This document shows, in pieces, positions 5,628 through 64,000 of a stretch of 64,000 nt of DNA. The notes below the pieces were generated by a model that saw only the letters and a list, made by a program, of their open reading frames with translations, did not search any database and was not told where the DNA came from. Numbering within the stretch: the stretch's first letter is position 1; every line of letters begins with the position of its first letter. A program made the position numbers and the translations under genes. The stretch spans positions 35,089,001-35,153,000 of the forward strand of contig CM074858.1 of NCBI GenBank assembly GCA_037501455.1. The letters run 5' to 3'. Origin of the DNA: Lantana camara. Taxonomy: Eukaryota; Streptophyta; Magnoliopsida; Lamiales; Verbenaceae.

Positions 5628-7763
5628 TGTTGGAACACAGCAGAGTCAAAGCAACGGAAGTTTAAAAAAAAAATCCAAAAGGGATCGTGATCTTGCAATG
5701 TTCGTTTCAAAACTTAAGGGATATCAAGAAACTTACATGAATTGAAGATTTCTTGAAACGTATTGAGCCGCCCTCAAACGTTCTTCATGCGGCATGAAAA
5801 TCCCCATTTCTTGATTCTTTCTTCGAGATTCCAAAGTAGAAATCCTCTGGAGTATTAATCCACACCAACCTAGATTCAAATCATGTCAGTGAGTATGCTA
5901 GTACTGTAACATGCATATTAAAAAAATAGAAATGAGAAAAGAGAGCAAGAGAATTATCCCCAAAATTCCATGAAGGTTGGACGTGATCTCAAATCACGTG
6001 TAAGCCAAAAAACTCGAACCCTTAGTCCCTTTTATAGGGTGGGGTTCGAACCTTAAATTCTTGTAGGAGATGGTCTCCTACTTTGACTTTTCTTCTACTG
6101 TTTCTTTCTCTCCAAGTAAATAATATCTTATCTCAAATAAGATATTTTTTTTATACAAAAAGAGCTCCAAACTGATTTAGGAATATTTAATTATTCTAGT
6201 AATAATTAAATATCTTTATCCTGATAATATTTATTCTAATCATATTAGAATAAATACTTTCTTAGAATAACAAAATAGAAGATATTTATTTATTTCTTTA
6301 TTCTAATCAAATTAGAATAAGCAAATAATTAAATACTTAGAATTAATTCTCCAATCAATTCTTTCAAGGGCTTTAGAATTAATTCACTAATTAATTCTAA
6401 CATGATAAAATTAATTCTCCAATTAATTTTATTTGGCTATACAATTAATTCTCCAATTAATCATATTTAGTGATTTATAATTAATTCTCCAATTAATTAT
6501 ATCCTGACTTTATAATTAATTCTCCAATTAATTATATTAGGACTTAATAATTAATTCTAAAATTAATTAACACATGATCCAATTCTGTAATTGGAGCCAC
6601 TCGTCCAAACACGCTCTTGACTCCCGCACGTTTACCATACACATGTGGTCTCGTTTCGATCAATTACTTGATCTTTCTAACAATACCGTTTGAACCCGGT
6701 ATTTGTGTGTGACCCTGTAGGTTCAATTTCAGTTAGCAGTGAGCCTAATTAATTAATACTCTTTAGTAATTAATTACCACACAGATCACATGACTATAGT
6801 CTAGCAACAGGTGTGTGACCCCTACCCAAAATGTGAATGTATATTCAAAAGAACCTTTCAGTCAATGACATCATGTGGGATATGATCCTCCTACCATCCT
6901 ATCTCTCGATTAAGATCTAGGGTATGGGATGATGGAGAGCCCTATTAATCTTAATCTTAAAACAAAGTTCCCTTCATATTGCATTTGATCTCAATCCAAG
7001 AAAACCCCATTTTCTTGATGCCTTGATCTAACCACCTTGCGCAAGGATTTTAGGATGGAACATGAATGACTTGTGTAATAAGAGATCATCTCGCCTACAA
7101 CAAGTATAGGTCCTTTATTGATTCCAACAATTTCCCAACACAGGCCGTGGTTCAGGTGTCTATACGACGACACCCTTTTGAGTATATATAAAAAATTACA
7201 GAGTTAACTCATATGAGACATTGTGGAATCTCAAGTCTAAGGATTAATTCCCCACGTCATTGACATGTGAGATATTTCCTAATCTGGAAGTTCTAGTAAC
7301 GTCCTTTCCCATTTAGGAATCTTCTCACGTGGGGCACTCTCAGTGAACTTGTTCTTACAACAAGCACCCTTGTGTTTTGTGTACGCATCAACTTATGCAC
7401 TTTACACCCCATGAAACAGGATGATCCTTCTTAGGGATAGAATTACACAAGCAAGTCTCAACAGAGGCAAAGTCGACACTCCCACTGTCCGTCAGCCTCA
7501 TTGACTTGGATAAGTTTCTAATCCTCGCCTATAGTGTTAAGAACTTGTTTCATGTGTCATTCCCATATTGACAAAGTTCTTAACGGCCTCATCGGATTAG
7601 GGGAGTTCTAGACATACACACGTAATGGAAACACACAAAACACGTATTGACACATAAGATGTGTTCGTTTGTGATTGCAATCATTCGTATATTATTCAAA
7701 GATTGTCTGTGATATAGGGAAAGTCCCAAAGCATAACAACTTTCTAGGGTACTATTCCCAACA
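5628..7763 (-). mobile_element. C1 copia 5' LTR, 2136 bp
   Basis: Bounded by TGTTGG next to the primer-binding site and by CCCAACA at 7763. Read on the minus strand it begins TGTTGGGAATAG and ends CCAACA. The start matches the 3' LTR fragment at 29659-29840, which sits next to a polypurine tract, confirming the outer boundary. A long hairpin array occupies 6063-6569. No frame of note. The flanking duplication cannot be checked because the other end of the element is outside the window. Confidence 0.85.
6063..6569. repeat. Array of about 12 perfect or near-perfect hairpins in the C1 LTR
   Basis: Arms, with positions: GTAGGAGA/TCTCCTAC (6063-6081); AATATCTTAT/ATAAGATATT (6122-6146); ATATTTAATTATT with its 13-bp complement (6183-6213); TATTTATTCTAAT, 13 bp (6228-6256); TTATTCTAAT, 10 bp (6298-6320); GAATTAATT (6340-6361, one mismatch); TTAGAATTAATT, 12 bp (6373-6400); ATAAAATTAATT, 12 bp (6405-6432); AATTAATT (6443-6461); TATAATTAATT, 11 bp (6476-6501 and 6511-6536); TAATTAATT (6548-6569). 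Most late units share the 4-base loop CTCC and a period near 35. Outer arm bases differ between units yet stay complementary. Confidence 0.92.
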
Positions 7764-9989
7764 AAGTCCATATACAAAATTTACAATGCCTATCCGGGCC
7801 CAAAATGATCAAGTGTCCAGGGCTAGAAAGTATCATAATACATATTTTGAAAAGTTCATAAGTATGTAAAGCAGAAATAAACCACTATAATGTGAAATGA
7901 AGACTCGAGCTATGCCACAAGTAAGACACTACGACCGAGTTTCCACCTACCACACTCTCCAACTGTACCTACAACTCAAGGAAAAGGGGAAAAGAGAAAC
8001 AGCAGCGAGGGTTAGTTCTAACGACTGGTGAGGTGGCTAACACACGCACGCATAATATATATAGAGCACATCACTTATCAAAAATCATAAAAACCAATGA
8101 TTCGGGGATGGTTTTTGCAAGCTAAAGCGTTTTCTGTGATAATAGATATACGTACTTAAAAGGAGTTAAAGGTCATAGGCCAAAATAGAAAGTTTTAGGT
8201 AGTTAGAAATCCATTCCCGTTTCATAGATCATGTAAAGCCACCCTAACTCGGCCAGTACGAGTTCTCCTTCCCAAAGACATAGGCATACTCAAAACAAAA
8301 TTCATAAACCATCCTTTCTCCGGGTGATAGAAGGGTTGACGGCCCTATCTATCAGCAAATGCACACGAGAGAAGGCTTAATTATGTCCTTGAAAGCTTCC
8401 GCCGGCTCAAGAGAAACACGCTTCCTCAACCTCCTAAGGTTGGGTTAGACTCTCAAAGGAAAGTGTTGATGGGAGAGCTCGGCGACCACACGGTCGTCCC
8501 GAGATACCCAAAGCAAAGTTCAAAGTTCACATTTCCAACAACGCTTATCTTTCGAAGTTCAAAGCTCGCTTACACACAAACACACTTATCAAAGGTTTTC
8601 AAATCAAACGAAAAATAGCTTATATACGTATACAAATCATTTTCAAAGTCTTATAGCGAACGCGACAAGCCCTCAAAGTACATATCATACACGTATTTAA
8701 CATATAATATACATATTTCGTATGCAACCTTCAAATCACATAGGGGAGTAGGTCATTATAGCTAAAAGAGCAAAACCTCACCTTCAATATGTGTAGTGGT
8801 GACAAAAGAGTGTAGATCGGACGCCTAAGGAGCAACCTCGTCGTCAACGGGAAGGTCCTCTGCGCAAAACAAATAATAAAAGACACTCTTAGACTCAAAA
8901 TGAACCAAATAGACAGTCGAAAAATACATATGAATGCGACTGGTATGTATGAAATGCAACAAGGTAACATGTAGGGCATAAATGAACATATCTTGCACGT
9001 TTCATATCAAAACGGTCCATAAATTTAATACAATGCTCATAACACATAATACAACATGTTCACGATACATATAAGTCGTATACAAAACAAGGAACGAAGT
9101 AAAGAAAGCAAGGAAAGAAACGAACAACACGAACACACACAAGAGAGGGGCTAAGGTCGTTAGCCCCGTACCCTTCTTCTTGGCCCTAACGGCTGTTAGC
9201 CAGGTTAGAAGCTCAGACCTGGACTAATTGTCATTAATATTGAAAACAACTAAGGGGGACTAACCCCCGTTAGGAGGGTCAGAGACCCAGGCCAAGGCCT
9301 AACGCCCATTACCATCCTCAACCAAGGAATACGCTAACAGGGCGTTAGGGCTACGCAGGCTAAGGGAGAGACATACAGAATCTACTTGGTGGATGGTGGG
9401 TCTAAGAATTGGTTAAAAAGGTGCTCAAATGAAAAAGTTATTGCTATTTTAGTAAAAGGTGGTACTTTCGGTACGAGATGCTCGTTCCGGTCAAATTTTG
9501 GAAGTTAAAACGAGCTTAGAAAATAGTGAGGCTTATTCCTTCGGCTCTAAATCATCAAAATGAGCCCATTGGAGGTGATTGAATTCGAATCCAAATTCCC
9601 GAGCCCAAGTTACGCTGCTCGGAACCCAAGGTACGCAAAATGCTTTTTAGCCCCCTTTAGGTCCCCGTTAAACAAAACGAGCCAAATCTAAACCAAATAA
9701 ATTCAAACTCACATAAAGAGTATATATTCATATTCATAACTCATGCATTTCACATATATCATAATTTCATAAAAATCAAAATTTAAATCAGATACATATA
9801 GATCAAGTTCAGAGTCATGTAGTCATAAACGTTCAAAACTCAAATTCAAAGCTAAAATCTAATTCATATAAGTTCATATAACATCAAAACATCACTATTA
9901 GCAAATAAGTGCATTATTAAAGAATTAAATTGTGCACGTATCACACCCATGATGTCATACCTGTAAGTACGAACGATCGGGATGTTACA
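7764..9989 (-). mobile_element. G6 gypsy 3' LTR, truncated
   Basis: The outer end is exact: GATGTTACA at 9981-9989, i.e. TGTAACATCCCG on the element strand, preceded by a polypurine tract and by a chromodomain remnant. The body resembles the G3 LTR (shared 'gactggtgag..ggctaacacacgcac' near 8022, compare 47685; 'ggtcataggccaaa' near 8171). Its 3' end is missing where the C1 LTR begins, so C1 either inserted here or was joined by deletion. Short frames inside are on both strands and look like chance. Confidence 0.7.
9147..9348. repeat. Palindrome array in G6 LTR
   Basis: Core pattern CTAAC-NNNN-GTTAG: GGGGCTAA/TTAGCCCC (9147-9167), CTAAC-GGCT-GTTAG with outer TGGC/GCCA (9181-9202), CTAAC-CCCC-GTTAG (9260-9273), a decayed unit (9299-9312), and CTAAC-AGGGC-GTTAG (9334-9348). 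Outer bases are unit-specific. Confidence 0.85.
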
Positions 9990-12918: not shown

Positions 12919-13370
12919 TACGGATTTCCCTTGATGTGTATTTCATTTCTATCTATGAATCCTAGCATGAAACTGAATGTATGAGCTTGTATGAGGAAGT
13001 CTTGTGAAAATGGTGATTTATGCCCAACTTGAAGAATATGGTTTATATGATGAGATCTTCAATTCCTTGAGCAAGCATTGATGATTGGAATGCTCCTTAT
13101 GTGTCTCAGTTGCTGGAAATTCGTGTATGGAAGACTAGAGATTAATATCTTCATGTTTAAACTTGAAATTCATGAAAATGGGTTTTTGAGATTTTGGGCA
13201 AAACCTTCTTAAACTTGGATTAATTGATGTTTTGATGCTAAGCATGAGTTATATGATGATCTACTTGAATTTCGTGATGTTTTATGGTAGATTTCGTGTT
13301 GGTTTGATGATTTTTCGTGTTCCCCTTCTTCTTCCCGAAACTGTTAAGTTTCTGCTCCAGATCTATGGCC

Positions 13371-13561
13371 GGAATGGCCGTTCCTGTTTGTGCTTTGAGC
13401 CGGGAACGACACTTTCGGGCTAGGGTTTGGTTTTGGCAGCGAACATGGGAATGCCCAGTCCCATGTATGCTTGGACTGGGAACGGCCGTTCCTAGTCTCG
13501 CTGCCTTTGGGTGTGGGAAGGCCCGTTCCCATGCAAGGCTATGCATGGGAATGGTCGTTCC
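13371..13561. repeat. Palindrome array, LTR A
   Basis: Six units around GGAACGGCCGTTCC with varied outer arms. Here several are decayed, for example CATGGGAATGCCCAGTCCCATG split by mismatches at 13445-13466, and GGGAACGGCCGTTCC at 13480-13494. See LTR B for the best-preserved units. Confidence 0.9.
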
Positions 13562-15406
13562 CAACCCCCTATTCTCCTTTTATGCATGTTCTTTTGTGTT
13601 TACCTGATCCGTTTGAGATGCTTTATGAATTATAGGTTATGATATGACTTCGATTCCATTCTTAGATGATAATACGTCATTTTAATTGAAGAACTTCGTA
13701 TGAAAGTTTGTCCTATGTTATGCTACTTGACCTATGTGATTCATATCATTCCATAATGCATTGCTGAACCTTAATACTTCGTTAATTGCATGATTTGGTG
13801 GAATATGTGAACTATGCTACGTGACCTATGTGTACACTTCATTCCATATTACATATCATTCATGTCTTGACACGCCGTGCGTCTTACTTGGTTCATATAG
13901 AGTTTAAGTCTGGGCTTCTGTATGTCTTGTCACAGAGTTTGGTGGTGCGGGTGGGCCCGTGGTTTAGAGTGTTTGGCCCTTCATACTCTCAGACTCTACT
14001 TGCACAAGTTGAGGTTTAGGATTTTGTATAGTTATGCGACCTATGGCCTTTACATGCTGATTTCGACCCTTGCATGCGAGTATACCCTACTATAAATATG
14101 TATGTGTTGGATATGATATGTTTATGAACTTCGCGTGTGTCCTGCTTGGGAGGGAGCCTTCGTGACTTAAACTCCATCGCGTAGGGATAAAATATATAAA
14201 CCAGTTTCTGAAGCATATGTAAGCTATTTTGGAAAAACAGTTGTGTTGTGATTATGTAGCGAGATTGCCATGAAAGATTGGCATATGTTATATTCTGTTG
14301 TCATCCGTTGTGATTTGTTCTGTTGTAATCCGTTGTGGATCTGATCCTGGAGAGCTGCGGGTAATGGATCCGCCGGAATGGTTAGGGCCGTCGGGGTATT
14401 CATCTATTTCGTAGTTCCATTTGAGATATCTTCACGCGACCCGTGCTGTAGGGAAGGTGTGGTATCTTAAGCCTTCGGCTAAGGCCGGGGAGGACTCTTG
14501 TGGGTTCGCCACCCCTTGAGGGTGAGTCTATTTTTAGACGGTTTATTATAGATGGTTATGGCCAACGCGTGGCTCTTCCATCGTTGGAGTAGAGGTTGGA
14601 TTGATTTTGATTTATGTTATGAGGATTTGAGGTTGGAAGCTCGTATTCGCCGAGCAGTTGATTATGTTATGTTATGGAATTATGAATCAGGATAGAGTCT
14701 TTCTGAAAAATGGTTTCTAAAACTTATATCTCTATTTCTTTGGGTTATTTTGAAATGTTTTGGTATGCAACACCTATCCTCGGTTCATGAGTCCATCATT
14801 TTATTCTGTGCTGTGCTCTTTATATATATATATTGTGGGTGTGCGTTAGCCCCCTCACTTAGTCAGTTGACTGACACCTTATTTTATCTTTTAGTTTACC
14901 GGTTTCCTTTTTGGCTCGAGCTAGGCGGAAGTGAGTCTTCGGAGTCACTCTTGTCAGTCTAGAAGGTGTTAGGATTCATTTTTCTCATACTTTGCCTATG
15001 TTATGTATCTATGTTTCACACTTACAGATTATGTTTACATTCTACCTAGATTTAAACCCATGTGGGGTTAGTAAGTTAGTATTTGGATGTTATTGGATAT
15101 TGATGATATTTATGTTGTTTATTATGTTGGATTACGGATTGATATTCGGGACTAGGTATCTATGCTAGTTGAACCTGTCACCTGTTTTGTATGTTTTGTT
15201 TTAAATGCTTCCGCTATCTAATGTTGTTGGTTTTAATTGCTTCCGCACTCTGAGTTTATCAAGTTAAATCCGCCTAGCCTAGTGTGTGAGTTGGTCTCCC
15301 GTTCGCTATGATTCGGATTCGGGCATTGACTTCCTATTTCACGACCGAGTCTGAGTCCTAGTGCGGGGGATGTGGTATCCTCAGTCTGGGGTGCTACATC
15401 CTTAAG

Positions 15407-16217: not shown

Positions 16218-19200
16218 TATACGTCATGAGAGAGTTTACCGTACACACTTATGTTATTTAATTCCCTTTTTATGTGTTTTATTCCAACTTTGATTGAAAA
16301 TGTGACTTAATTGACAAAAAATCCAAAATGGTAAAATATGAATTCTTGCATGACAACTTAAGAACGGAACTTATGTGAATTTAAATTAATTGTTAGAGTT
16401 GGGTTTAAATAGGACTTGGACCTATTTGTGTGTTTTGGCCCTAACTCATGTTAGGTAAGTTTGGGTCATTCGAGACCAATATGAGCTCGGGAATTCGAAT
16501 TCAAATTTCGACACCACCATTGGACTTGATTCGGCGATTCGGCTATAATGGAATTTACTTTATATTTTTCGGAAACCGTTTAGACCTTGAACCTTTTTAA
16601 TTTTGACCTATTGGGCCGAAAGTCATTTATTTGAGCCCAAATCCTAATAAAACCTCTAGCCTCATATTATATCTTGGAAACCCTAACCTTGACCTAGAAT
16701 TATTAGCCACCAAATAAATAGCCTTATCACTTCTCATTTCATTTCAAACCTCTCTTCACACAAATCATATCATCCATGGAGGAGCTTCGAGAGAGGATAA
16801 AGATCTAAGACTTTCCTACACCTTCAAGAGCTCATATCTCCCTCGTTTCTTCATCATTTCAAGAGCCAAGGTAAGCTACGGATTTCCCTTGATGTGTATT
16901 TCATTTCTATCTATGAATCATAGCATGAAATTGAATATATGAGCTTGTATGAGGAAGTCTTGTTAAAATGGTGATTTATGCCCAACTTGAAGAATATGGT
17001 TTATATGGTGAGATCTTGAATTCCTTGAGCAAGCTTTGATGATATGTGTCTTAGTTGCTGGAAATTCGTGTATGGAAGACTAGGGATTCATATCTTCATG
17101 TTTAAGCTTGAAATTCATGGAAATGGGTGTTTGAGATTTTGGGCAAAACCTTCTTAAACTTGGATTAATTGATGTTTTGATGCTAAGCATGAGTTATATG
17201 ATGATATACTTGAATTTCGTGATGTTTTATGGTAGATTTCGTGTTGGTTTGATGATTTTTGGTGTTTCCCTTCTTCTTCCCGAAACTGTCAAGTTTTTAC
17301 TCCAGATCTATGGCTGGAACGGCCATTCCCGTTTGTGCTTTGAGCCCGGAACGGCCCTTCCGGGCTAGGGTTTGGTTTTGGCGGGTAACATCGGAACGCC
17401 CGTTCCCATGTATGCTTGGACTGGGAACGGCCGTTCCCAGTCTCGCTGGCTTAGGGTGTGGGAAGGCCCGTTCCCATGGAAGGCTATGCATGGGAATGGC
17501 CGTTCCCAACCCCCAGTTCCCCTTTTATGCATGTTCATTTCTGTTTACGTGATCCGTTTGAGATGCTTTATGAATTATAGGTTATGATATGACTTCGATT
17601 CCATTCTTAGATGATAATACGTCATTTTAATTGAATAACTTCATATGAAAGTGTGTCCTATGTTATGCTACTTGACCTATGTGATTCATATCATTCCATA
17701 ACGCATTGTTGAACCTTAATACTTCGTTAATTGTATGATTTGGTGGAATATGTGAACTATGCTACGTGACCTATGTGTACACTTCATTCCATATTACATA
17801 TCATTCATCTCTTGATACGCCGTGCGTCTTACTTGGTTCATATAGAGTTTAAGTCTGGGCTTCTGTATGTCTTGTCACAGAGTTTGGTGGTGCGGGTGGG
17901 CCCGTGGTTTAGAGTGTTTGGCCCTTCACACTCTCAGACTCTACTTGCACAAGGTGAGGTTTAGGATTTTGTATAGTTATGCGACCTATGGCCTTTACAT
18001 GCTGATTTCTACCCTTACATGCGAGTATGCCCTACTATAAATATGTATTTGTTGGATATGATATGTTTACAAACTTCGCGTGTGTCCTGCGTGGGAGGTA
18101 GTCTTTGTCGCTTAAACTCCATCGTTTAGGGATAAAATATATAAACCAGTTTCTGAAGCATATGTAAGCTATTTTGGAAGAACAGTTGTGTTGCGATTAT
18201 GTAGCGAGATTGCCATGAAAGATTAGCGTATGTTATATTCTATTGTGATCCGTTGTAACCTGTTCTGTTGTGATCCGTTGTGGATCTGATCCTGGAGAGC
18301 TGCGGGTAATGGATCCCCCGGAATGGGTAGGGCCGTCGGGGTATTCATCTATTTCGTAGTTCCATTTGAGATATCTTCATGCGACCCGTACTGTAGGGAA
18401 GGTGTGGTATCTTGATCCTTCGGCTAAGGCCGGGGAGGACTCTTGTGGGTTCGCTACCCCTTGAGGGTGAGTTTATTTTTAGACGGTTTATTATAGATGG
18501 TTAGGGCCAACACGTGGCTCTTCCATCATTGGAGTAGAGGTTGGATTGATTTTGATTTATGTTATGAGGAGTTGAGGTTGGAAGCTCGTACTCGCCGAGC
18601 AGTTGATTATGTTATGTTATGGAATTCTGAATCGGGCTAGAGTCTTTCTAAAAAATGGTTTCTAAAACTTATATCTATATTTCTATGGGTTATTTTGAAA
18701 TGTTTTGGTATGCAACACCTATCCTCGGTTCATGAGTCCATCCTTTTATTTTGTGCTGTGCTCTTTGTATATATATATTGTGGGTGTGCGTTAGCCCCCT
18801 CACTCAGTCAGTTGACTGACACCTCATTTTATCTTTTAGTTTGCAGGTTTTCTTTTTAGCTCGAGCTAGGCGGAAGTGAGTCTTCGGAGTCACTCTTGTC
18901 AGTCTAGTAGGTGTTAGGATGCATTTATCACATACTTTGCCTATGTTATGTATCTATGTTTCACACTTGCAGATTATGTTTACATTCTACCTAGATTTAA
19001 ACCCGCGTGGGGTTAGTAAGCCAGTATTTAGATGTTACTGGATATTGATGATATTTATGTTGTTTATTATGTTGGATTACGGATTGATATTCGGGACGAG
19101 GTATCTATGCTAGTTGAACCCGTCACCTGCTTTGCATGTTTTGTTTTAAATGCTTCCGCTATCTATTGTTGTTGGTTTTTATTGCTTCCGCACTCTGAGT

Positions 19201-20824: not shown

Positions 20825-20943
20825 CTCTTATTATTATGTGATATACTTGCTAATTATGATATGCGTTGATTGTTGTAATTTTCAACTATGCTACTTCGAT
20901 GTGCGTAGGCACAAGTGCTTCGAATAATTGTATTTATGTGCCA

Positions 20944-21406
20944 GAGAGATGTCAGAATCTCTCGTTCTTAGTGTGAGGAAGATTTAATTCTCTCTATTTA
21001 CGTGCTTGGGAGATGTTAATCCTCTCGATTTATGTGTTAGAGCGTCGCAGGATTCTCTACTTATGTGATGGAAAGATGTTGGATTCTTTCTAAGCGTTGT
21101 GCACGAGAGATGTTGGATTCTCTTGTACTTAGATATTCAGGAGATGCTGGATTCTCTTGAATATAAGGGTTTGAGAAATGCTGGAACTTCTTAAACTAGA
21201 ATGTTGGAAGATGCTCAAATCTATCCAACATAGGCTGTGAGACGGGGGTTCTCTAAATTTTCTGCTCGAGAGACGGGGCTCTCTCTTATGTGATCGAGAG
21301 ACGGGGTTCTCCCGCTTTCTGTGTTCGGGAGACGGGGTGCTCTCGCTTTCTGTGTTCGAGAGACGGGGTTCTCTCACCTTTTGTGCCGAGAGATGGGATT
21401 CTCTCT
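20944..21406 (+). repeat. Tail hairpin array, unit B (about 15 units)
   Basis: Period about 30-45 nt. Each unit pairs GAGAGA-like with TCTCTC-like arms around a short loop, first GTCAGA/TGTTGGAT type, later CGGGGT. Examples: GAGAGAT/ATCTCTC (about 20944), GAAAGA/TCTTTC (about 21071), CGAGAGA/TCTCTTG, CGGGAGA/GCTCTCG (about 21326), CGAGAGA/TCTCTC (about 21356). It lies where protease-RT-RNase H-integrase would be. Some units here are more decayed than in copies C and D. Confidence 0.9.
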
Positions 21407-21469
21407 GTCTGTCTTGGTTGCGATGCACGACGACAACTGCGGACTACAAGAAGTAAAAACGGGACATCC

Positions 21470-22248: not shown

Positions 22249-22852
22249 GCCTTATCCCTTCTCATTTCATTTCAAACCTCACTTCACACAAATCATATCA
22301 TCCATGGAAGAGCTTCAAGAGAGGATGAAGATCTAAGACTTTCCTACACCTTCAAGAGCTCATATCTCCCTCGTTTCTTCATCATTTCAAGAGCCAAGGT
22401 AAGCTACGGATTTCCCTTGATGTGTATTTCATTTCTATCTATGAATACTAGCATGAAATTGAATGTATGAGCTTGTATGAGGAAGTCTTGTGAAAATGGT
22501 GATTTATGCCCAACTTGAAGAATGTGGTTTATATGATGAGATCTTGAATTCCTTGAGAAAGCTTTGATGACTTGAATGGTCCTTATGTGTCTTAGGTGCC
22601 GGAAATTCGTGTATGGAAGACTAGGGATTCATATCTTCATGTTTAAGCTTGAAATTCATGAAAATGGTTGTTTGAGATTTTGGGCAAAACCTTCTTAAAC
22701 TTGGAGTAATTGATGTTTTGATGCTAAGCATGAGTTATATGATGATATACTTGAATTTCGTGATGTTTTAAGGTAGATTTCGTGTTGGTTTAATGCTTTT
22801 TGGTGTTCCCCTTCTTCTTCCCGAAACTGTCAAGTTTATGCTCCAGATCTAT

Positions 22853-23047
22853 GGCCGGAACGTCCGTTCACGTTTGTGCTTTGAGCCCGGAATGGCCCTT
22901 CCGGGCTAGGGTTTGGTTTTGGCGGCGAACATGGGAACGCCCGTTCCCGTGTATGCTTGGACTGGGAACGGCCTTTCCCAGTCTCGCTGGCTTTGGGTAT
23001 GGGAAGGCCCATTCCCATGCAAGGCTATGCATGGGAATGACCGTTCC
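22853..23047. repeat. Palindrome array, LTR C
   Basis: Six units including CCGGAATGGCCCTTCCGG, GGGAACGCCCGTTCCC (about 22932), GGGAACGGCCTTTCCC, GGGAAGGCCCATTCCC and GGGAATGACCGTTCCC. Most mismatches against the other copies look like C-to-T or G-to-A changes. Confidence 0.9.
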
Positions 23048-24853
23048 CAACCACATGTTCCCCTTTTATGCATGTTCTTTTGTGTTAACTTGATCCGTTT
23101 GAGATGCTTTATGAATTATAGGTTATGATATGACTTCGATTCCATTCTTAGAAGATAATACGTCATTTTAATTGAATAACTTCGTATGAAAATGTGTCCT
23201 ATGTTATTCTACTTGATCTATGTGATTCATATCATTCCATAATGCATTGTTGAACCTTAATACTTCGTTAATTGCATGATTTGGTGGAATATGTGAACTA
23301 TGCTACGTGACCTATGTGTACACTTCATTCCATATTACATATCATTCATCTCTTGATAAGCCGTGCGTCTTACTTGGTTCATATAGAGTTTAAGTCTGCG
23401 CTTCTGTATGTCTTGTCACAGAGTTTGGTGGTGCGGGTGGGCCCGTGGTTTAGAGTGTTTGGCCCTTCACACTCTCAAACTCTACTTGCACAAGGTGAGG
23501 TTTAGGATTTTGTATAGTTATGCGACCTATGACCTTTACATGCTGATTTCTACCCTTGCATGCGAGTATACCCTACTATAAATATGTAAATATGTATGTG
23601 TTGGATATGATATGTTTATGAACTTCGCGTGTGTCCTGCGTGGGAGGGAGCCTTCGTGGCTTAAACTCCATCGCGTAGGGATAAAATATATAAACCAGTT
23701 TCTGAAGCATATGTAAGCTATTTTGGAAAAACAGTTGTGTTGTGATTATGTAGCGAGATTACCATGAAGGATTAGCATATGTTATATTCTGTTGTGATCC
23801 GTTGTGGATCTGATCCTGGAGAGCTACGGGTAATGGATCCCCAGGAATGGTTAGGGCCGTCGGGGTATTCATCTATTTCGTAGTTCCATTTGAGATATCT
23901 TCACGCGACCCATGCTGTAGGGAAGGTGTGGTATCTTGAGCTTTCAGCTAAGGCCGGGGAGGACTCTTGTGGGTTCGCTACCCCTTGAGGATGAGTCTAT
24001 TTTTAGACGATTTATTATAGATGGTTAGGGCCAACGCCTGGCTCTTCCATCATTAGAGTAGAGGTTGGATTGATTTTGATTTCTGTTATGAGGAGTTGAG
24101 GTTGGAAGCTCGTACTCGCCGAGCAGTTGATTATGTTATGTTATGGAATTCTGAATCGGGATAGAGTCTTTATGAAAAATGGTTTCTAAAACTTAAATCT
24201 ATATTTCTTTGGGTTATTTTGAAATGTTTTGGTATGCAACACCTATCCTAGGTTCATGAGTCCATCCTTTTATTTTGTGCTGTGCTCTTTATATACATAT
24301 ATATTGTGGGCGTGCGTTAGCCCCCTCACTCAGTCAGTTGACTGACACCTCATTTTATCTTTTGGTTTGCAGGTTTCCTTTTTGGCTCGAGCTAGGCGGA
24401 AGTGAGTCTTCGGAGTCACTCTTGTCAGTCTAGTAGGTGTTGGGATGCATTTGTCGCATACTTTGCCTATGTTATGTATCTATGTTTCACACTTGCAGAT
24501 TATGTTTACATTCTACCTAGATTTAAACCCGTGTGGGGTTAGTAAGTTAGTATTTGGATGTTATGGATATTGATGATATTTATGTTGTTTATTATGTTGG
24601 ATTACGAATTGATATTCGGGACGAGGTATCTATGCTAGTTGAACCCGTCACCTGCTTTGCATGTTTTGTTTTAAATGCTTCCGCTATCTATTGTTGTTGG
24701 TTTTAATTGCTTCCGCACTCTGAGTTTGTCAAGTTAGATCCGCCTAGCCTAGTGTGTGAGTTGGTCTCCTCCGTCTGGCATAGACTTTCTATTTCATGAC
24801 CGAGTCTGAGTCCTAGTGCGGGGGATGTGGTATCCTCCGTCTAGGGTGCTACA

Positions 24854-39580: not shown

Positions 39581-39766
39581 AGAATGCCGCAATGGAAGGT
39601 ACAATAAACATTCATAGCACGAGCATACATACATCGTTTATTTGACTCTTATTATTATGTGATATACTTGCTAATTATGATATGCGTTGATTGTTGTAAT
39701 TTTCAACTATGCTACTTCGATGTGCGTAGGCACAAGTGCTTCGAATAATTGTATTTATGTGCTAGA

Positions 39767-44884: not shown

Positions 44885-47228
44885 TGTAGCACCCCAACCG
44901 GAAAGGCGCCACATCCCCCGCACTATGAGCCCGATCCACACATGAAATGGAAAATCCATACACGAACCTAGCTCACAGCGAACGGGGACTCAATCACTCG
45001 TTAGGCTAGATGGGAACTAAACCTTCGTAACCGAATAATAAAGGACAAGGATAAATGACAAATGTGGAAGCAAAGCATATAATCCACAACCAATTCAAGT
45101 AAAATAACGGGTTCAACTAAAACAATGACATATTCCCGAAAATTCACATGTAAACATAAATCATAATGTACGGGTTCAAACTATCCCTAGAAGCCTGTCC
45201 CTGATTCTTATAAATGTAACATTTCCATATATACATTATTGTATAAGTTAACTTATGTACAAAATGCGTATGAAGTGACTTAGACTTAAATATGAGACTT
45301 GACAGACTCCGAACCCCGCCTAGCACTCCAAAACCTGCAAAAGAACTGAAAACAAAGCCGGGTTCAGTCTATAGGAGACTGGTGGGTATAAACAGGGCAT
45401 AGGTATAATATAAGACAATATTTAAACATTCACATGCAAGTTATAATCCCATTTGAGGTTTTTGAAGTATTTCCCAAGTGGGTGAGATAAACAAATCATC
45501 AAAGGGGATTATAACAACCAATTTCCATTAGGTCTTCCGTGGCCCGAAGAGTGGGCGTGCATTATCTCCAACCAACATCTTGTGTAATTTATTAAACATT
45601 CTTTCTTTCTTTCTTTTCATGCATTACATTCTTTCTTTGACATTCACCATCACTTACACCTTTTTCCTCCCGTTGGTGGACGAGTTAGCAAGACCCGGCC
45701 ACCTCCTTCATTGACCAAAAGGGGTTACATAACTCCCCAGATGGCGCTCAGCATCCATTCCTCGCTAACTCCTAACAAAGTCCGGTTACGCCGTACATTG
45801 GTTGGAACTAATGTAAGGGATCACCGTCGGCCCATACCTCCCCGGATAGCCACTCACACTAATTCCCTGGGTCCCATTCTGTGCATTCATTCATTCATTC
45901 TCACCAAAACATTTGGTAGGGTTCATAAAATAAAGGCTTTACGTTGCAATCATTTACTCTTAAAACGACTCTATATACATATAATAAATTTTGGGCCGAA
46001 ATCTTTACACATTGGAGGTATATAGGGTCATTTAACTAAATAGTAGAGAAACCCACCTGTTACACCTTACCGAACAATACCAAGAAGAAGAAAATACTTG
46101 AGGTGTCCTATGAACCCGGCATCTCCGCCCTGGAGAAAACTGTACAAAGGACAATATAACGTGCTCGTGAGGCTCAAGACTCCAAATGAACCACATATGA
46201 CGCACGTCAATACTATTCACGTGATATGAGATGCATGAGAAGTAAAATGACGTTGGGAAGTCATGAAATCAAGCAATTCACTCAATATGTTCAAATACGT
46301 TCAACATATGAAGGTTTCATATTCATTCTTTCTATAATTTTCACGAATCAATTCAACTCGAGCCATATATTCCATGTAATAATCCCAAACACACACAATG
46401 CTAAGCTTAATTTGGTAATTAGATAAAACAAAGTTATCCAAGTTATTTACATAAATATGAACATGAAGTGGTATCAATTTATTTCTATAATTTCATTTAG
46501 GGCAAATAAATCATGATACATTACTCATTAACCTATTAATATGTAAATATAATTGAGAAGTAATAATTAGTACTTAATATTTACATACACTATATGCATG
46601 TATTAAAATCATGCAATACTCATTCGATTCATGCATGCATTATAGGATATATATATACACGTACACCAACTACATCCATTCTATATAATATATACTCATC
46701 ACATGCACCCACACTACTTAATACACAATTATATACATATATATAATATACAACCCCTTAGGATCGGATAATAAACATAGATCAACAAGGACGGCCATGC
46801 AAAATAAAATTTAAAAGGGAAAAAAAAAAGATAAGTCAGGCAGCAACAAACAGCTAGGGTCGAAACTCCCCAAAATCAGTTCAAATAGGGTCGCGACCGC
46901 TACTCTCTCTCTCCAGCAGTAGCACAGGTGAAAACAAGTTGAAACTGAGGCAAATTAGGGTTGCGGGAGCTACCCAAAACGGCCTTCTCGCGGTCGTGCC
47001 CGCGACTGCGTGTTGCAGTCGCGTAGCAGGGCTTCCAGCCCCTGTTTCGTCTCCATTTTTGCAGCAACAATAGGGGCCATTCCAGGACATCAAGGGCAGG
47101 GAAGTAGCAGCAAAATATTGCAGATAAGGCAGCACAACAACTATAATAACAGCAGCAATCACACAGCCACGAAAGAGATTCAAATGGTGGAGTTAAAATT
47201 CATTCCTTCAAGCTTTCATGAAGGTTCA
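44885..47228 (-). mobile_element. G2' 5' LTR part (duplicate of 26064-28404)
   Basis: TGTAGCACCCCAACC start, same interruption by a G3 terminus. Confidence 0.87.
46958..47041. repeat. Palindrome array, G2' LTR
   Basis: As copy 1. The main stem is 9 bp here (CGCGACTGC/GCAGTCGCG, about 47001-47023), one pair longer than in copy 1, where the right arm has decayed. Confidence 0.85.
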
Positions 47229-49532
47229 TGTAACACCCCGGAGCGAAGGGCATCACATCCCCCGCACCATAACCCAACACGTGAAACGAAATGGGCCTCC
47301 CTCCACGCATCAACTCATGGCGAACGGGTGACAGATAAAAATCCAACCTAAGCTAGACGGTCTAGACCCTACTCAAAGAGCGCAACAAAACCAAATAACG
47401 AATGCGGAAGCACCAGAACACCAAAAACAAACAAACATACTCGAGAGATATAAAAAATATAACGAATGAAGTTATATAAACCTTTACAAATCGAAATAAA
47501 GACATAACTTATACATATTTCAAAACTAACAAAATGCGTAAAGTAAACGAAAGACAATGCATGAGACTCAAGCTCTCCAAAACCAAGACTCAAAGACAAC
47601 CGCCTAGCTCCAACTCCCAAATGGAAACCTGCAAACTCAGCTCAAAAGGGGAAAAAGAGAGAAATAACGAGGGCCAGTCCTAGAGACTGGTGAGGGGGCT
47701 AACACACGCACCCATACATATACATAAGAGCAAGGCTTATTCAAAGCTAAAAATGTTCATGAACCGGGCGCGGTTTTTTTTTTTTTGCATTCTAAAACAT
47801 TTAACCCATGGTAATATATATAAAGAAAGAAGTTTGGGGTCGTAGGCCAAATTCAGTCAAGTTTTAGAGTTTAGAAATCCGCCCCCATTTCTCAACCATA
47901 AACGAAACATAACTTACCGAAAGCTTAACTCCAACTCACTTACTCCAAGCAAGGCGAAACGAAAACAAAAGAATTCATAAATCAATCCCACCCTTACACT
48001 GTTTTGGGGAGAGAGGTGCCCCTCTCAAAACCCCACTTATAAACTTAATGAGACGGGGGATCCACCCGCTCCTTCAAAGGGTCACGTAGCACGTGGTCGG
48101 CTCAAGAAGACCCGCCTTCCGCTCGACCTCCCGAGGATGGGCCAAGTCTCCCTTTTGTGGAGAAGTATATAGGGGTTGCAACCGGCGGCCCCATGGTCGA
48201 GCCGGGTCTCCCATTACATACAACTCCGGGGCCCAAACTTACACTTACACATATAAAGCTTACACTTATCACACTTACCATACGAAGCTTATCCACAAGC
48301 CATATCAGGCTTACACACACACAGTTATCAAAGCTTGTCAAAGCAAACAAAAATAGAGCTTATGTACTTACAAAAGCGTTTTCATAGTCTCAAGACAAAC
48401 GGGACAAATCCCACAAAATATATATCTAAACACATATCTACATATATACATATATAAGTCGCATGCGGGTTCGAAATACAAATAGGGTTTTAGGTCATAA
48501 TAACTAAAAGAAAAGAAAACCTCACCTTACCGACCAAGCGAACCAAAGGAACCACCTCTACAACCTCGAGACAAACCTAAGAAGAAAAACAAAGAGCAAA
48601 GGACAAGCATAAACTCAGCATGATCCAATTAGATGCTCGGCATATGCATATAGGTGAAAATGATGCATATAAAATGCAATAAGTTAACACTTATGTGACA
48701 TGACATCCTATCGAGAGATATTGGGGCATAACTCACATATTTCACGTTCATGAACATCATGCAATGTTATATAACAAATTAAGAATGCATACAACTCATA
48801 CCAAGGCAAAGGAAAAGCATGCCAGGCAAGAAAATAAGTCATAAAGTCATACGTGCCCATAAAAGGGTATTTAGATTACATAAGGTACGTTTCACGCTCA
48901 ATGAATTCATAAACTTAACACAACGCATACAACACATAATTCTAACATACAACATACCAAATTCAAGAAATGACAAGCCATAGCATCTAATATCATACAT
49001 ATAAACAAGCATTCAACACCTTAGGAACAAGGTAGGGGAGGGAAACAAACAAAACGGACAAAGAAACAAAGTTCGGGCAAGAAAACTTAAGTTTTTCCAG
49101 ATCCAGGGTCGTGGATATTTTCAAAAGGGGAGATCCATGTCCGTGGATCTGGGGACAGAAACATACCTGTTGTTGGACTCCTATCCACGGCCGTAGATTT
49201 GATCAAAGCCAAAAATCCTCGCCCGTGGATCTGCTTCCAGTGACCAAAACTCGGTTTTTAGCCCTCAAACTCACCAAGAACCAAAACCAAACCATACTAA
49301 CATCAAATTAACACAATAGACAAGATATATGCATCAAAGATTCTAGGTTTATGCCCTAATTCATCCAAGAACCAAAGCTAAAGTGAGGAGAGGGAAGAGA
49401 TGCATCACATATTCATGCTCAAGCAAATTCATCAGTGGCATGCTCATAACTTCTAAACCAAAGCTCAAACCAAGTTCATGGATTCAACACCAAAACATCA
49501 CAATATCAAACCCTAACACGCAGCAACAAAAC
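47229..49532 (-). mobile_element. G3 LTR, longer copy 2
   Basis: TGTAACACCCCGGAGCG terminus. It extends about 1 kb further than copy 1 before G4 begins at 49533. It contains a palindrome array at 49101-49230. Remaining G3 sequence is expected beyond the right end of G4, outside the window. Frames here (for example 48093-48356) are on both strands and look like chance. Confidence 0.8.
49101..49230. repeat. Palindrome array, G3 LTR
   Basis: ATCCA/TGGAT (49101-49116), AGATCCA-TGTCCG-TGGATCT (49131-49150), ATCCAC-GGCC-GTAGAT (49183-49198), ATCCTC-GCCC-GTGGAT (49215-49230). About 1.9-2.0 kb from the LTR 3' end. Confidence 0.85.
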
Positions 49533-54376: not shown

Positions 54377-55829
54377 AAATAAGTTCCAACCTTCTTCCTC
54401 CGGGTGGTGGACGGGTTAGCAAGACCCGACCACCTCATACATAGGCCAATGGGGTTTCATGACTCCCCCAAGGGCACTCAGCTCCCATTCCCCGCTAAAC
54501 CTCCTAGCGAGGGCCGGTATCACCGTAACATAGTGGGACTAGCACATGGGATCACCGTCGGCCCATGCCTCCCCGGATAGCCACATGTACTAAGTCCCTG
54601 GGCCCGTGAACATATCATAGATACATAATCTCGCCAAAACATATCAGTTCATGTGAAACATATCATATTTCATAATTCATTTGAAAAGGGTTTACTCCGT
54701 CAATGTTTAAACGATAACTTTACTTTAAAAGTAACGTATATATATATACATAAGGTTTTGGCCAAAGCTGATCACACAAGGTTGTAGGGTTAATATGTAA
54801 CTAAAACGAAAACACCCTCACCTGGATGACCACGAGACATAAAACATGTGCAATACGGGTGCCTATTCAATCCGGAAGTCTCCGCCCTGGAAACGAACTG
54901 TACAAGAGAATGAACAAGGTGTACCAGTGAGAGGAGACTCAATACGAACCAAATAGGACGCTCGGCAATGTAATGATCATGATATGAATATGTGAAAGAT
55001 AAGATTATGTTATGAGAATGTTCATGTGCACAATTAATACATTTAAATCATATAAAAAATCCTTTCAGTCGACATAGAAGCGTTCATATTCATTCAAGTC
55101 ATAAATTCACATTTCAATCAATTCAATTCAAGAATTCAAATAAGGGCATAACACGTATTAAATCACATTTAAAATTAGAACATAAACAACTAAACACATT
55201 CAATCGCATTTAAAATTAGAAATTAAACAATTAAATACATTCAATTAAATTTAGGAAATTAAATTAAACATGAAATAGATAACAATTAAATTCTATAATT
55301 CAATTAAATCAAATAAAAATTAATATTTAATAAACATATATAAATAAATATATGAATATATAATATATATATATATATATATATACATTCATGCTACGTA
55401 CAACAAATGCATGTAATATGCATGAAATTTTCATGCATTTAAACTAATACATGCATGCAATTACTTATACAAAACAACATTAATGCCATCCATGCAATTA
55501 CTTATACAAAACAACCCATGCATTTCATGCATAAACAACTAATTCATGCCAGAAAGAAAAGAAAACCATCAGCAGCAGTTTAATAACAACACAACAGCAG
55601 TTTCAGTCCAGAACTAATCACTTTTCCATGCCTGAAACATTTAATTCCAACCTATGCTTACATGAAACTCAATCACGTACTGCAATTACACCTACATTAC
55701 ATACATTAAAGCATCACATGCAATTACAAGCAAAGAGAAAGAAAGGAATCAAAGCAACAAGGAAGAAAGGGAAAGCATACTGTAGCAGTTTCACGTACGC
55801 ACAACACAACCATGCAGGGGAAATTACAA

Positions 55830-55953
55830 GGTGACACGCCCGTGTCACCCCTAAAGAACAAACCGAGACACCCCCGTGTCTCGGTACAGAGATTACAGAC
55901 TCTCGTGCACCCCCGTTACATGCTGAAAAAGGAAGGATTGACACCCCCGTGTC
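55830..55953. repeat. Palindrome array, G4 3' LTR
   Basis: GGTGACACG-CC-CGTGTCACC, 9-bp arms (55830-55849); CCGAGACAC-CCCC-GTGTCTCGG, 9-bp arms (55863-55884); a weak unit near 55904-55918; GACAC-CCCC-GTGTC (55940-55953). The inner GACAC/GTGTC is constant, while outer GGT/ACC and CCGA/TCGG are unit-specific and complementary. Confidence 0.92.
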
Positions 55954-57554
55954 GGACAGCAGCAGCTCCATCAAAAACGTAGGTTTATACCCTGTTTTCT
56001 GGGCATAAAATGCAGCACCAACTAAAGCGACAAACAACCAGGAAACGCAGCAATAAAAGGCACGAAATGCAGCAACAAATCAACCTTAACAATGCATAAA
56101 ACTGACAGCAACAACAAGGGAAGAACGCAGCCGTTTTACAGCATAATTTCAGGCCAAAAAATAGGGTAAAAGTCACGAAAAAATAGGGCAGGACTGATCC
56201 ACTTCATTTCCACATATTCAAGTCAGTTTAGGCTATCAAATATGCAGTAAAAGGACACTAATTCAATGTATAAATCAGTTCTAAAGAAGCTCAAACGTGT
56301 AAGGCAGTATACGTGACCCTTTCATGAAAATTTCTCAACATGCCATAACTGATATCTCGTAAATACCTCAACTACCAAGTAATAAATGATCATAAATGAG
56401 AAGAGGATGTTAAAAAAATCATTTTGAGGCTTGGAATCATTCAAAAAGCTCAAGAATTGAAAGAGATCAACCAAAATGCTCAAAACCTAATATATATACA
56501 TCTCTGTCAAAACCTCATAAAACCATGCTTAAATTTAGGGATGAATAGATGAAATGACTCATATGGAATGTACATAACATATCTAAGCTTACCTTGTGGA
56601 TTAATGGAGGTTTGGAAGGAGATTTGAGCTTTAATCTCTTGGTAAAGCTTGAATTACAGGAGAGACTGGGAAGCAGAAGATGTTTGGGATATTTTCAGCA
56701 AGTGGGAAGGGTTCGTTCGGTTTGAGCATGGTATGGAAGGTGAGGTGGTTGAGTTAGGTTTCCATAGCATCCAACCATAGTTAATTTGGTCAACAAATGA
56801 ATAAGTTATGGTCATTTTAGTGCAACAAGGTCAGTTTTATCGCCGTTTTATTTTTCGGTTGGATTTCGGAGGTTAAAATGACGTTAGAAAAATATAAGGC
56901 TAAGGTCACTAAACTCGAATTTTCGTTACGAGTTCAGCGGAGTTGACGGAACTCGAATCCGAGTTCCCGAGCTCAAGATATTAAATACGGAACCAAGGGT
57001 GCGCTAAGTGCTCGTTAGCCCCCGACTTGGATTCCAAAGTTAAAATAAATCCGAAGCACATACAAATGAATCCGAAAATATGAAACGAACAAATATTCAT
57101 ATACAAGACACGTATAAGTTCAACATATTAAATTTGCACGAAATTTCGGTATCAATTCATACAGAAACGAAGCACGTAAATGTCACTCATACGCAATAAA
57201 ACAATAAAATTCATAATATTATAAATAATATAACAATCCCATACGTATATATATATAATTTATAATACATGCATGCATAATCAATTTATAAATATAAAAT
57301 GCATGCGTTACAATATTCATGCACACGTACACAATTAACATATATATTTATGTTATATAAATATATTTAATATTAGTATCATTAAAAAGATATATATATA
57401 TATATTTAATATTAATATTATTAAAATAAAATAATTAACATTTAATACATTTAAAGTAAAACTAAATATGTAAAACACGTATAATTAATTATTCGCGCAA
57501 TTTGATAAACACATACGTCATGCTGTACAAAATAAGAAAAACGGGGGCGTTACA

Positions 57555-57572: not shown

Positions 57573-57612
57573 AATCCGTCCTCGGATTCACTATCTGCTT
57601 GAAACAATTAAT

Positions 57613-57722
57613 GAAGGAACCCCGTTCCTCACAAACAACAAAGAGAGAATCCCCGTCTCTCAAACACAACAAAGAGAGAACCCCCTCTCTCAAAAACAAC
57701 AACGAGAGAACCCCGTCTCTCG
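57613..57722. repeat. Tail hairpin array, G4 (4 units)
   Basis: AGGAAC/GTTCCT (57615-57629), GAGAGA/TCTCTC (57643-57661 and 57674-57691), CGAGAGA/TCTCTCG (57703-57722), loops ACCCCG-like. In element sense this is the same motif and the same place (just upstream of the polypurine tract) as in G1. Confidence 0.9.
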
Positions 57723-57996
57723 TGAAGAAGTAACGAAATTGAAAATACCAAAAACAGTCACAACGAAGAACCAACATCAAGGAGAAAACATCAAAATATC
57801 CAATTACAGCAACTTAGTCAAACAATCACATAAAGCCATGGAACAATCATCACTTACTTACATCCAACATCAATTGTACAACCATAATTAATAAATCAAA
57901 GAGTCAAAGCGCAAATTAGCAAGATTATTTAAATTAACAATGTGTGTATGCGTATGCCGTGGATGTCTGAGGTACCGTTCACCGTAGTCACAAAAT

Positions 57997-60782: not shown

Positions 60783-60790
60783 CTTAAGGA

Positions 60791-62660: not shown

Positions 62661-64000
62661 CATGCATGCTACGTACAACACATGAATGCAATATGCATGA
62701 AATATTTATGCATTTAAACTAATACATGCATACAATTACTTATACAAGACAACATTAATGCCATGCATGCATTTACTTATACAAAACAACACATGCATTT
62801 CATGCATAAACAACTAATTCATGCCAGAAAGAAAATAAAACCATCAGCAGCAGTTTAATAACAACACAACAGCAGTTTTAGTCCAGAACTAATCACTTTT
62901 CCATGCCTGAAACATTTAATTCCAACCTATGCTTACATGAAACTCAATCACGTACTGCAATTACACCTATATTACATACATTAAAGCATCACATGCAATT
63001 ACAAGCAAAGAGAAAGAAAGGAATCAAAGCAGCAAGGAAGAAAGGGAAAGCATGCTGTAGCAGTTTCACGTACGCACAACACAACCATGCAGGGGAAATT
63101 ACAAGGTGACACCCCCGTGTCACCCCTGAAGAACAAACCGAGACACCCTCGTGTCTCAGTACAGAGATTACAGACTCTCGTGCACCCCCGTTACAAGCTG
63201 AAAAAGGAAGGATTGACACCCCCGTGTCGGACAGCAACAGCTCCATCAAAAACGCAGGCTTATACCCTGTTTTCTGGGCATAAAATGCAGCAACAACTAA
63301 AGCCACAAACAAGAAGGAAACGTAGCCATAAAAGGCACGAAATCCAGCAACAAATCAACCTTAACAATGCACAAAACTGACAGCAACAACAAGGGAAGAA
63401 CGCAGCAGTTTGACAGCACAATTTCAGGCCAAAAAACAGGGTAAAAGTCACGAAAAAACAGGGCAGGACTGATCCGCTTCATCTCCACATATTCAAGTCA
63501 GTTTAGGCTATCAAATATGCAGTAAAAGGACACTAATTCAATGTATAAATCAGTTGTAAAGAAGCTCAAACGTGTAAGGCAGTATACGTGACCCTTTCAT
63601 GATAATTTCTCAACATGCCATAACTGATATCTCATAAATACCTCAACTACCAAGTAATCAATGATCATAAATGAGAAGAGGATGTTAAAAAAATCATTTT
63701 GAGGCTTGGAATCATTCAAAAAGCTCAAGAATTGAAAAATATCAACCAAAATGCTCAAAACCTAATATATATACATCTCTGTCAAAACCTCATAAAACCA
63801 TGCTTAAATTTAGGGATGAATAGATGAAAATGACTCATATCTAATGTACATAACATATCTAAGCTTACCTTGTGGATTAATGGAGGTTTGGATGGAGATT
63901 TGAGCTTTAATCTCTTGGTAAAGCTTGAATTACGGGAGAGACTGGGAAGCAGAAGATGTTTGGGATATTTTCAGCAATTGGGAAGGGTTCGTTCGGTTTG
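60791..64000 (-). mobile_element. G4 5' LTR, cut by the window end
   Basis: TGTAACACACCGCACG start, collinear with the 3' LTR over about 3.2 kb. Differences are scattered substitutions and microsatellite length changes ((TA)n at about 62630-62660). Confidence 0.92.
63105..63233. repeat. Palindrome array, G4 5' LTR
   Basis: GGTGACAC-CCCC-GTGTCACC (63105-63124), a CCGAGACAC unit with two changes (about 63138-63159), and GACAC-CCCC-GTGTC (about 63215-63228). Confidence 0.9.

Follow-up and report, generated by a model that had tools for sequence, protein, structure and literature searches.

The locus and its palindrome arrays

A 64-kb stretch of Lantana camara DNA (the window, meaning the whole stretch analysed) consists of nested plant long terminal repeat (LTR) retrotransposons, as revealed by self-comparison. 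Several of their LTR lineages carry rows of short palindromes, whose arms are different yet complementary and whose centre is common to four gypsy lineages; in the gypsy LTRs, the rows are located upstream of an internal-exon-like block. All results refer to this window alone, and the copies compared are those that it contains. The ends of the following LTRs were set from the self-comparison (BLAST) and by eye:

1330-5067, plus strand: solo LTR S1, target site duplication AACCC (by eye), palindrome array absent
5631-7144, minus strand: C1 LTR, copia-like by its LTR ends and primer-binding site (read by eye)
7766-9989, minus strand: G6 LTR, truncated
five copies, plus strand: G1 LTRs
26064-28403 and 44885-47227, minus strand: G2 LTRs, 5' part missing
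28405-29658 and 47228-49538, minus strand: G3 LTRs, 5' part missing
49563-53537, plus strand: solo LTR S2, target site duplication CTACA (by eye), inside G4, palindrome array absent
sense start at 57556, the other beyond the window end, minus strand: G4 LTRs

The palindromes occupy the segments listed below. Three copies of G1 and the G4 element carry a second array between the coding region and the 3' LTR, referred to in the following as an untranslated region (UTR) array.

6050..6585, minus strand: C1 palindrome chain in U3, units AATTAATT-GGAG-AATTAATT (sense) with unit-specific outer arms, followed by further hairpins (TATTTATTCTAAT-atg-, ATATTTAATTATT-actag-, AATATCTTAT-ttgag-, GTAGGAGA-cca-)
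9145..9350, minus strand: G6 LTR array, units around CTAACGSSCGTTAG
13366..13562, plus strand: G1 LTR array, copy a
17311..17508, plus strand: G1 LTR array, copy b
22852..23050, plus strand: G1 LTR array, copy c, built on the core GGGAACGGCCGTTCCC; arms differ from unit to unit (AGCCC/GGGCT, GACT/AGTC, and the singly mismatched ACAT/GTGT)
36436..36634, plus strand: G1 LTR array, copy d
41665..41863, plus strand: G1 LTR array, copy e
28130..28220, minus strand: G2 LTR segment, one 8-bp hairpin and a weaker one, barely above chance
46955..47045, minus strand: G2 LTR segment, second copy
49100..49235, minus strand: G3 LTR array, four imperfect units of ATCCACGGSCGTGGAT
55828..55955, minus strand: G4 LTR array, copy a; outer arms ACCGA/TCGGT and GGT/ACC flank GACACGGGSGTGTC
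63102..63235, minus strand: G4 LTR array, copy b
20940..21408, plus strand: G1 UTR array, first copy, upstream of the 3' LTR and ending about 300 nt before it
34530..35000, plus strand: G1 UTR array, second copy
39760..40230, plus strand: G1 UTR array, third copy
57612..57725, minus strand: G4 UTR array, directly upstream of the 3' LTR, units of the type GAGAGA-CGGGGT-TCTCTC

The G1 UTR array comprises 15 units, among them GAGAGA-CGGGGT-TCTCTC and more diverged ones (e.g., ATATTCAGGAGA-..-TCTCTTGAATAT) with arms of up to 12 bp; its motif is related to, yet distinct from, that of the LTR array.

An initial annotation of the window had described arrays of 4-12 consecutive hairpins in six LTR lineages and a single LTR without them. 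The number of hairpins is borne out for C1, which has 16 stems of at least five contiguous pairs (seven of them AATTAATT units, and some of the shortest perhaps due to chance), for G1 with up to six units, and roughly for G6 with six stems, three of which have a CTAAC arm and one CTAA. It was set too high for G4 (three good units and one degenerate), G3 (four imperfect units, two with at least five contiguous pairs), and G2 (two hairpins). LTRs without an array number two, S1 and S2.

Palindrome excess, shared centre, and complementary arms

The initial annotation had named equal palindrome density in shuffled sequence as one outcome that would count against its proposal; instead, the window contains 256 hairpins, compared with 135 ± 10 after shuffling within 500-base blocks (200 shuffles). 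The difference is also present among hairpins with at least three G or C in the arm (116 vs. 44 ± 6). Clusters of at least four hairpins containing G+C per 250 nt occur seven times, against 0.035 (maximum 1) in the shuffles; in G1 they coincide with four LTR arrays (of five) and two UTR arrays (of three), and in G4 with the UTR array. Clusters of at least six hairpins of any composition number four (vs. 0.05, maximum 1): one begins near 970, two lie in C1 (starts 6183 and 6444), and one lies in G1 (start 36408). The cluster at 970-1250 is A+T-rich and belongs to another element fragment; by simple counts, its density equals that of C1.

Hand-chosen regions were compared with 100 shuffles each. 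At a score of at least 7, the C1 region holds seven hairpins (vs. 0.94 in shuffled sequence), the five G1 copies three to four each (vs. 0.08-0.24), and the two G4 copies two each (vs. 0.01 in copy a and 0.07 in copy b). Only one hairpin per lineage reaches this score in G6 (vs. 0.14, 14 of 100 shuffles being as good), G3 (vs. 0.08, 8 of 100), and G2 (vs. 0.07, 6 of 100), and G6 has six (vs. 1.8) at a score of at least 5. Most of the lineages originally named thus have genuine palindrome arrays, strong in C1 and G1, moderate in G4 and G6, weak and imperfect in G3, and little above chance in G2. A scan for folding of the plus strand (799 windows of 160 nt, 14 shuffles per window) placed 13 array windows, five LTR 3' ends, and two windows of neither kind among the top 20; the best ranks of G4 and G2 were 48 and 64. 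The LTR 3' ends at 53441-53600 (which also covers two facing LTR ends), 4961-5120, 19201-19440, and 15281-15440 are among the most strongly folding windows and are similar across lineages, possibly reflecting a U5 hairpin beside the primer-binding site.

A centre near ACGGSCGT is common to four gypsy lineages. In idealised form (units vary), the sense centres are GGGA-ACGGCCGT-TCCC in G1, ATCC-ACGGSCGT-GGAT in G3, GAC-ACGGGSGT-GTC in G4, and CTA-ACGSSCGT-TAG in G6, and the centre of the UTR arrays, ACGGGGTT, is similar to that of the LTR arrays. The sequence ACGGCCGT (CGG-CCG) is found in part of the G1 units and in a single unit of G3; units of G4 and of the UTR arrays mostly have CGGGGG or CGGGGT, and CGG-CCG is absent from C1. 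With the caveat that the patterns were picked post hoc and that copies of the same family are not independent, exact ACGGSCGT has 16 strand-matches in the 64 kb (vs. 0.87 expected), all within arrays and representing ten sites (eight in G1, one each in G3 and G4), and ACGGSSKT has 41 (vs. 5.9 expected), of which 39 fall into array segments of LTRs or UTRs, including two that lie in G2 and off the hairpin centre. As a fairer test, a matrix built from 18 G1 units (three of the five copies) and scanned outside the G1 LTRs placed the G3 and G4 arrays at ranks 1 and 2. Array segments, which constitute 4.9% of the scanned bases, received 9 of the 33 matches that scored above the last tie. Of the top 40 matches, 16 fell into array segments and 24, including ranks 3-5 and 7, fell elsewhere.

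The arms of the arrays differ but are complementary within each unit. Stem covariation was scored in 18 chosen units (six G1 consensus units, three of four from G4, all four from G3, three of five from G6, and two from UTR arrays), leaving aside G4 unit 2 and the first and fifth G6 units (stemless or with a loop of different length), G2, C1, and most UTR units. In this set, 92% of the stem cells are paired, compared with 56% when partners are redealt, and the covariation score is 0.894, compared with 0.184 after shuffling and at most 0.25 after shifting partners by one column. G-U accounts for 1 of the 83 paired cells, a count flattered by the six consensus units. A common plan executed with different arms, as originally suggested, is supported by these units; the claim that arm sequences are unrelated between lineages holds for the arms but overlooks the shared centre.

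The outer arms were examined in 45 units from seven arrays (six units per LTR array in G1, four in G4, four in G3, five in G6), with inner cores set by hand and without G2 and C1 stems other than AATTAATT. They form 102 matched pairs, compared with 74.9 ± 6.5 when arms are swapped between units, and their contiguous runs sum to 75, compared with 34.6 ± 7.1; neither value was reached in 20,000 permutations. By array, the signal is significant in the G1 UTR array (P < 0.0001), C1 (0.003), and G1 (0.02; runs 0.05). A smaller test on three arrays was mixed, with matched arms exceeding swapped ones in G1 and G4 and falling below them in G3. Complementary outer arms that are specific to each unit point to compensatory selection or to the copying of arm onto arm, because plain duplication would be insufficient; the permutation result thereby supports the earlier suggestion that either the structure is under selection or the arrays arose by a shared mechanism. 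Among individual copies, 458 of 485 stem cells are Watson-Crick pairs (227/245 in the G1 LTR, 185/192 in the G1 UTR, and 46/48 in the G4 arrays) and a few are G.T (8/245, 6/192, and 1/48); the remainder are A.C or plain mismatches.

The initial annotation had missed the core shared by the gypsy arrays, the second arrays outside the LTRs of G1 and G4, the complementarity of the unit-specific arms, and the position of the arrays relative to the exon-like block and the TATA box.

Position of the arrays and the leader of the elements

The distance of the arrays to the LTR 3' end is similar in the four lineages in which this end is present (G1, 1.81-2.00 kb; G2, 2.07-2.15 kb; G3, 1.87-2.00 kb; G4, 2.32-2.45 kb), in agreement with the 1.8-2.4 kb originally estimated. 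C1 differs in kind: the last stem of its chain lies about 27 bp upstream of TATAAAA, which places the array in U3. In G1, one good TATA box precedes the array by about 610 bp; other TATA-like sites follow the array.

The gypsy arrays lie upstream of an internal-exon-like block that is present in all seven gypsy LTR lineages, including the two without an array. The block consists of an acceptor-like AG followed, 56 to 98 nt on, by a donor-like AG|GTGAGG, which is exact in six lineages and replaced by AG|GTGGGT in G2; a second acceptor-like site occurs 718 to 893 nt beyond the block donor. The acceptor-like patterns were composed after reading each LTR (that of S1 is poor), and a shuffle test was made for AGGTGAGG only. 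This motif occurs in six of the seven sense LTRs and once in antisense, whereas 300 shuffles gave a mean of 0.19 lineages and a maximum of three; among the five G1 copies, b, c, and e have it intact. Its distance from the LTR 3' end is 1.17-1.38 kb in the six lineages that retain this end, which agrees with the similar distance of the arrays. Because of their common core and their location upstream of the same conserved block, the gypsy array lineages are not independent inventions. The sites mentioned in this section are:

6030..6040, minus strand: C1 TATA box CCTATAAAAGGG, about 27 bp 3' of the last hairpin at 6063-6081 (by eye)
22397..22403, plus strand: donor-like AAG|GTAAGC of G1 copy c, upstream of the array, putative splice site
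23413..23500, plus strand: exon-like block of G1 copy c, from acceptor-like motif to donor-like AG|GTGAGG, putatively spliced

The donor-like AAG|GTAAGC precedes the array in all five G1 copies and in G4 (56594, minus strand), and in G1 it is itself preceded by the TATA box. Donor-like sites are also present in S1 and S2; the respective part of the LTR is lacking in G2 and G3. Since the arrays precede the exon-like block and, in G1 and G4, follow a donor-like site, the gypsy arrays are perhaps located in a leader intron. The exon-like block, together with a later TTGCAG|GTTT (22397-24376 and equivalents in the seven gypsy lineages), suggests an LTR leader with multiple exons. Such a leader would be unusual for plant LTR elements, which are generally intron-less according to the consulted part of a recent review (PMC12786077). 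An acceptor-like TTTCAG|GATGATACC at the start codon of gag in three G1 copies (15660, 19604, and 38728) is a possible 3' end of the leader intron.

G1 is Ty3-like, as its Gag matches Retrotrans_gag (PF03732) and Ty3_capsid (PF19259); the protein ends in a CX2CX4HX4C knuckle, as read from the open reading frame. The other gypsy lineages were assigned by partial LTR similarity only. The elements may belong to the chromovirus/Tekay clade, a guess that draws on LTR length and ends; the domain scan covered gag. A search of viral and prokaryote contigs with the G1 Gag confirmed no related element, and Rfam yielded no matches at gathering scores. Self-comparison also revealed tandem LTR-gag-LTR chains of G1 at 12229-24859 and a 9-kb duplication with 97% identity (20741-29658 vs. 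39562-48527). Internal regions are short in G4 (57557-60787, 3.2 kb) and G1 (19344-21713, 2.4 kb), which makes these elements look non-autonomous; gag was found in G1, and no search for pol was made.

Interpretation and comparison with known systems

The arrays are tentatively interpreted as cis-regulatory repeats of plant LTRs, i.e., near-perfect DNA palindromes with arms renewed by template switching, a reading that appears plausible but somewhat short of probable. A dimeric DNA-binding factor of the host would contact the centre of each palindrome, and several sites in series would form an enhancer, located in the leader intron of the gypsy LTRs and directly upstream of the TATA box in C1. 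Short template switches during reverse transcription or replication would rewrite imperfect arms to perfect ones, so that arms drift between units and lineages and symmetry persists. Among the roles considered in the initial annotation, a platform for a dimeric protein fits best, and a similar architecture and core upstream of the promoter are described for Sirevirus LTRs in the excerpts of PMC2829016.

Several results weigh against this interpretation. The outer-arm signal is not significant in G4 (P = 0.17; runs 0.08) and absent from G3, G6, and the G4 UTR array, and 6 of the 14 distinct pairing departures in the G1 LTR stems are plain mismatches. Stem columns are no less variable than the others in the G1 LTR (16/98 vs. 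26/142), G1 UTR (3/128 vs. 14/402), and G4 (2/48 vs. 6/153) arrays; because variation is alike inside and outside of stems, neither constraint nor selection after insertion is demonstrable from the copies in the window. Three pairs changed on both sides in the G1 LTR are not counted as proof of compensation, one being an artefact of the majority consensus and two being compatible with C-to-T changes on both strands. The hairpin excess extends to several LTR stretches beyond the arrays, namely the remainder of C1, G3 (8 vs. 2.6 at a score of at least 6), G4 copy b (6 vs. 1.5) and G2 (5 vs. 1.3) at a score of at least 7, and S2 (49563-53537; 38 vs. 27 at a score of at least 5). Moreover, the hairpins of G2 do not have the shared centre, so that this lineage fails to fit, C1 differs from the gypsy arrays in both core and base composition, two LTR lineages do without an array, the core patterns were selected after the fact, and no donor-like site was found in G6 with the patterns used.

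Many of the same observations would also be expected if the palindromes were functionless by-products of mutation, created when reverse transcription or replication across a hairpin-prone seed copies one arm onto the other, a process documented elsewhere (excerpts of PMC8794818; PMC3820800). Unit-specific complementary arms, stems made up mostly of Watson-Crick pairs, undiminished variability of stems, arrays beyond the LTR, and a surplus of hairpins both window-wide and in several LTR stretches outside the arrays are all in line with this explanation, which has some likelihood but is rather doubtful. Against it, lineages with only partially alignable LTRs (59-86% identity) repeatedly show similar centres at comparable positions. 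Plain tandem repetition with coincidental symmetry is highly improbable: although Tandem Repeats Finder detects periods of 35 bp in C1 and 30-31 bp in the UTR arrays, at default score it does not pick up any gypsy LTR array, and duplication as such would not yield complementary arms specific to each unit.

Packaging or dimerisation of RNA, proposed in the initial annotation, is possible but not favoured. Hairpins in the unspliced genomic RNA might be bound at their G-containing loops by the zinc knuckles of Gag, and splicing would strip the array from the gag mRNA. This would suit the knuckle of the G1 Gag, sense loops that often contain GG, and the location of the array behind a donor-like site in G1 and G4 and, in G1, behind a TATA box. 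Selection on RNA predicts that the sense strand is more structured than the antisense strand, relative to shuffles, and that G-U pairs are tolerated. The absolute folding energy is indeed lower for sense RNA in 14 of 17 array segments, and the distinct departures from pairing (nine G.T vs. four A.C) lean toward RNA, albeit not significantly. Measured against shuffles, however, the antisense strand shows more structure than the sense strand in 15 of the 17 segments (e.g., sense vs. antisense z of -2.4 vs. -4.2 in G4 copy a, -1.6 vs. -4.0 in G3, and -2.6 vs. -6.5 in the G4 UTR array), the exceptions being G1 copy b and the part of C1 near the TATA box. Likewise, units frequently pair with each other in the predicted sense fold, G-U pairs are as scarce as described above for the chosen and partly consensus units, and the C1 array precedes its TATA box. 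The strand comparison and the pair counts demoted RNA packaging from first choice to an unlikely explanation; on balance, palindromes that are visible on both strands, antisense included, are better explained by symmetry at the level of DNA or by a copying process than by RNA hairpins. Inverted repeats that feed or evade host small RNAs, with arms changing in an arms race, are a quite improbable alternative. Arms of 5-13 bp are short for Dicer, and an element would be expected to shed such structure unless it is otherwise useful. A point in favour is that palindrome-rich LTR regions of maize Sireviruses are hot spots of small RNAs according to the excerpts of PMC5311732 and PMC10760457; the authors of the latter hypothesise a tug-of-war between regulation and small RNAs.

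Palindrome arrays of plant LTRs have previously been linked to the copia Sireviruses. The excerpts of PMC2829016 describe RM boxes in Sirevirus (Ty1/copia) LTRs as palindromes whose copy number per element ranges from a minimum of 8 to as many as 32, mostly with a CGG-CCG core and family-specific arms, located near the promoter in CpG islands. The arrays of the present window (with G2 and G3 as weak cases) resemble them in the clustering of short palindromes in the LTR, a G+C-rich centre of the CGG..CCG type in most families, arms that differ between families, a G+C-rich LTR island, and additional copies beyond the LTR in some elements. With G1 represented by three of its five copies, G+C contents are 49-67% in the gypsy LTR arrays and 35-40% in the remaining LTR sequence; the ratio of observed to expected CpG is not uniformly raised in the arrays, which are about 200 bases or less in length. 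Unlike RM boxes as described there, the present arrays occur in Ty3/gypsy LTRs, have a strict CGG-CCG only in part of their units, and comprise 3-6 units per LTR array rather than at least eight. Those of G1 and G4 follow a donor-like site instead of lying just upstream of a TATA box, and the extra array is found near the 3' LTR instead of before env. Membership in the Ty1/copia Sireviruses does not apply to G1, in view of its Gag.

The excerpts of PMC2829016 also report an RM box without CGG-CCG in Tnd-1 (ACAATCGATTGT), an element in which a TATA box was not found. C1 resembles this type in having LTR palindromes without CGG-CCG but differs in the series of several unrelated stems, the complete lack of CpG, and the presence of a TATA box directly downstream. 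The BII boxes in U3 of Tnt1 are likewise cis elements of a copia promoter region and are bound by defence-induced factors; they are not described as palindromic in the excerpts of PMC3316501. The same is true for the 3' tandem repeats of Retand (excerpts of PMC11963269), which share with the UTR arrays the location between coding region and 3' LTR. Template switching is able to both create and repair stems (excerpts of PMC8794818), and the hairpins attributed to it resemble those of the window in their perfect stems and sudden compensatory differences of several bases; they concern RNA genes rather than retrotransposon LTRs, and in the window only the outcome is seen. The symmetric but differing arms provide a natural test of template switching as a maker of LTR palindromes.

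No gypsy version of a palindrome array is present among the open-licence literature matches listed, and in the excerpts of a maize survey, Ty3 elements are without an obvious hairpin peak (PMC10760457). Because the copy number and, at least in G1, the family do not agree with those of RM boxes, the present arrays are read as a Ty3/gypsy variant on the RM-box plan, outside the Sirevirus family, and may function like the CGG-CCG boxes of Sireviruses without belonging to them. It is conceivable, if rather unlikely, that gypsy and copia LTRs convergently built the same device: rows of CGG..CCG-type palindromes serving one family of host factors, placed by the gypsy elements in a leader intron, with template-switched arms that leave silencing no fixed sequence to recognise while the core is kept. 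The occurrence of a similar centre in gypsy LTRs would suggest that a single host factor serves both superfamilies.

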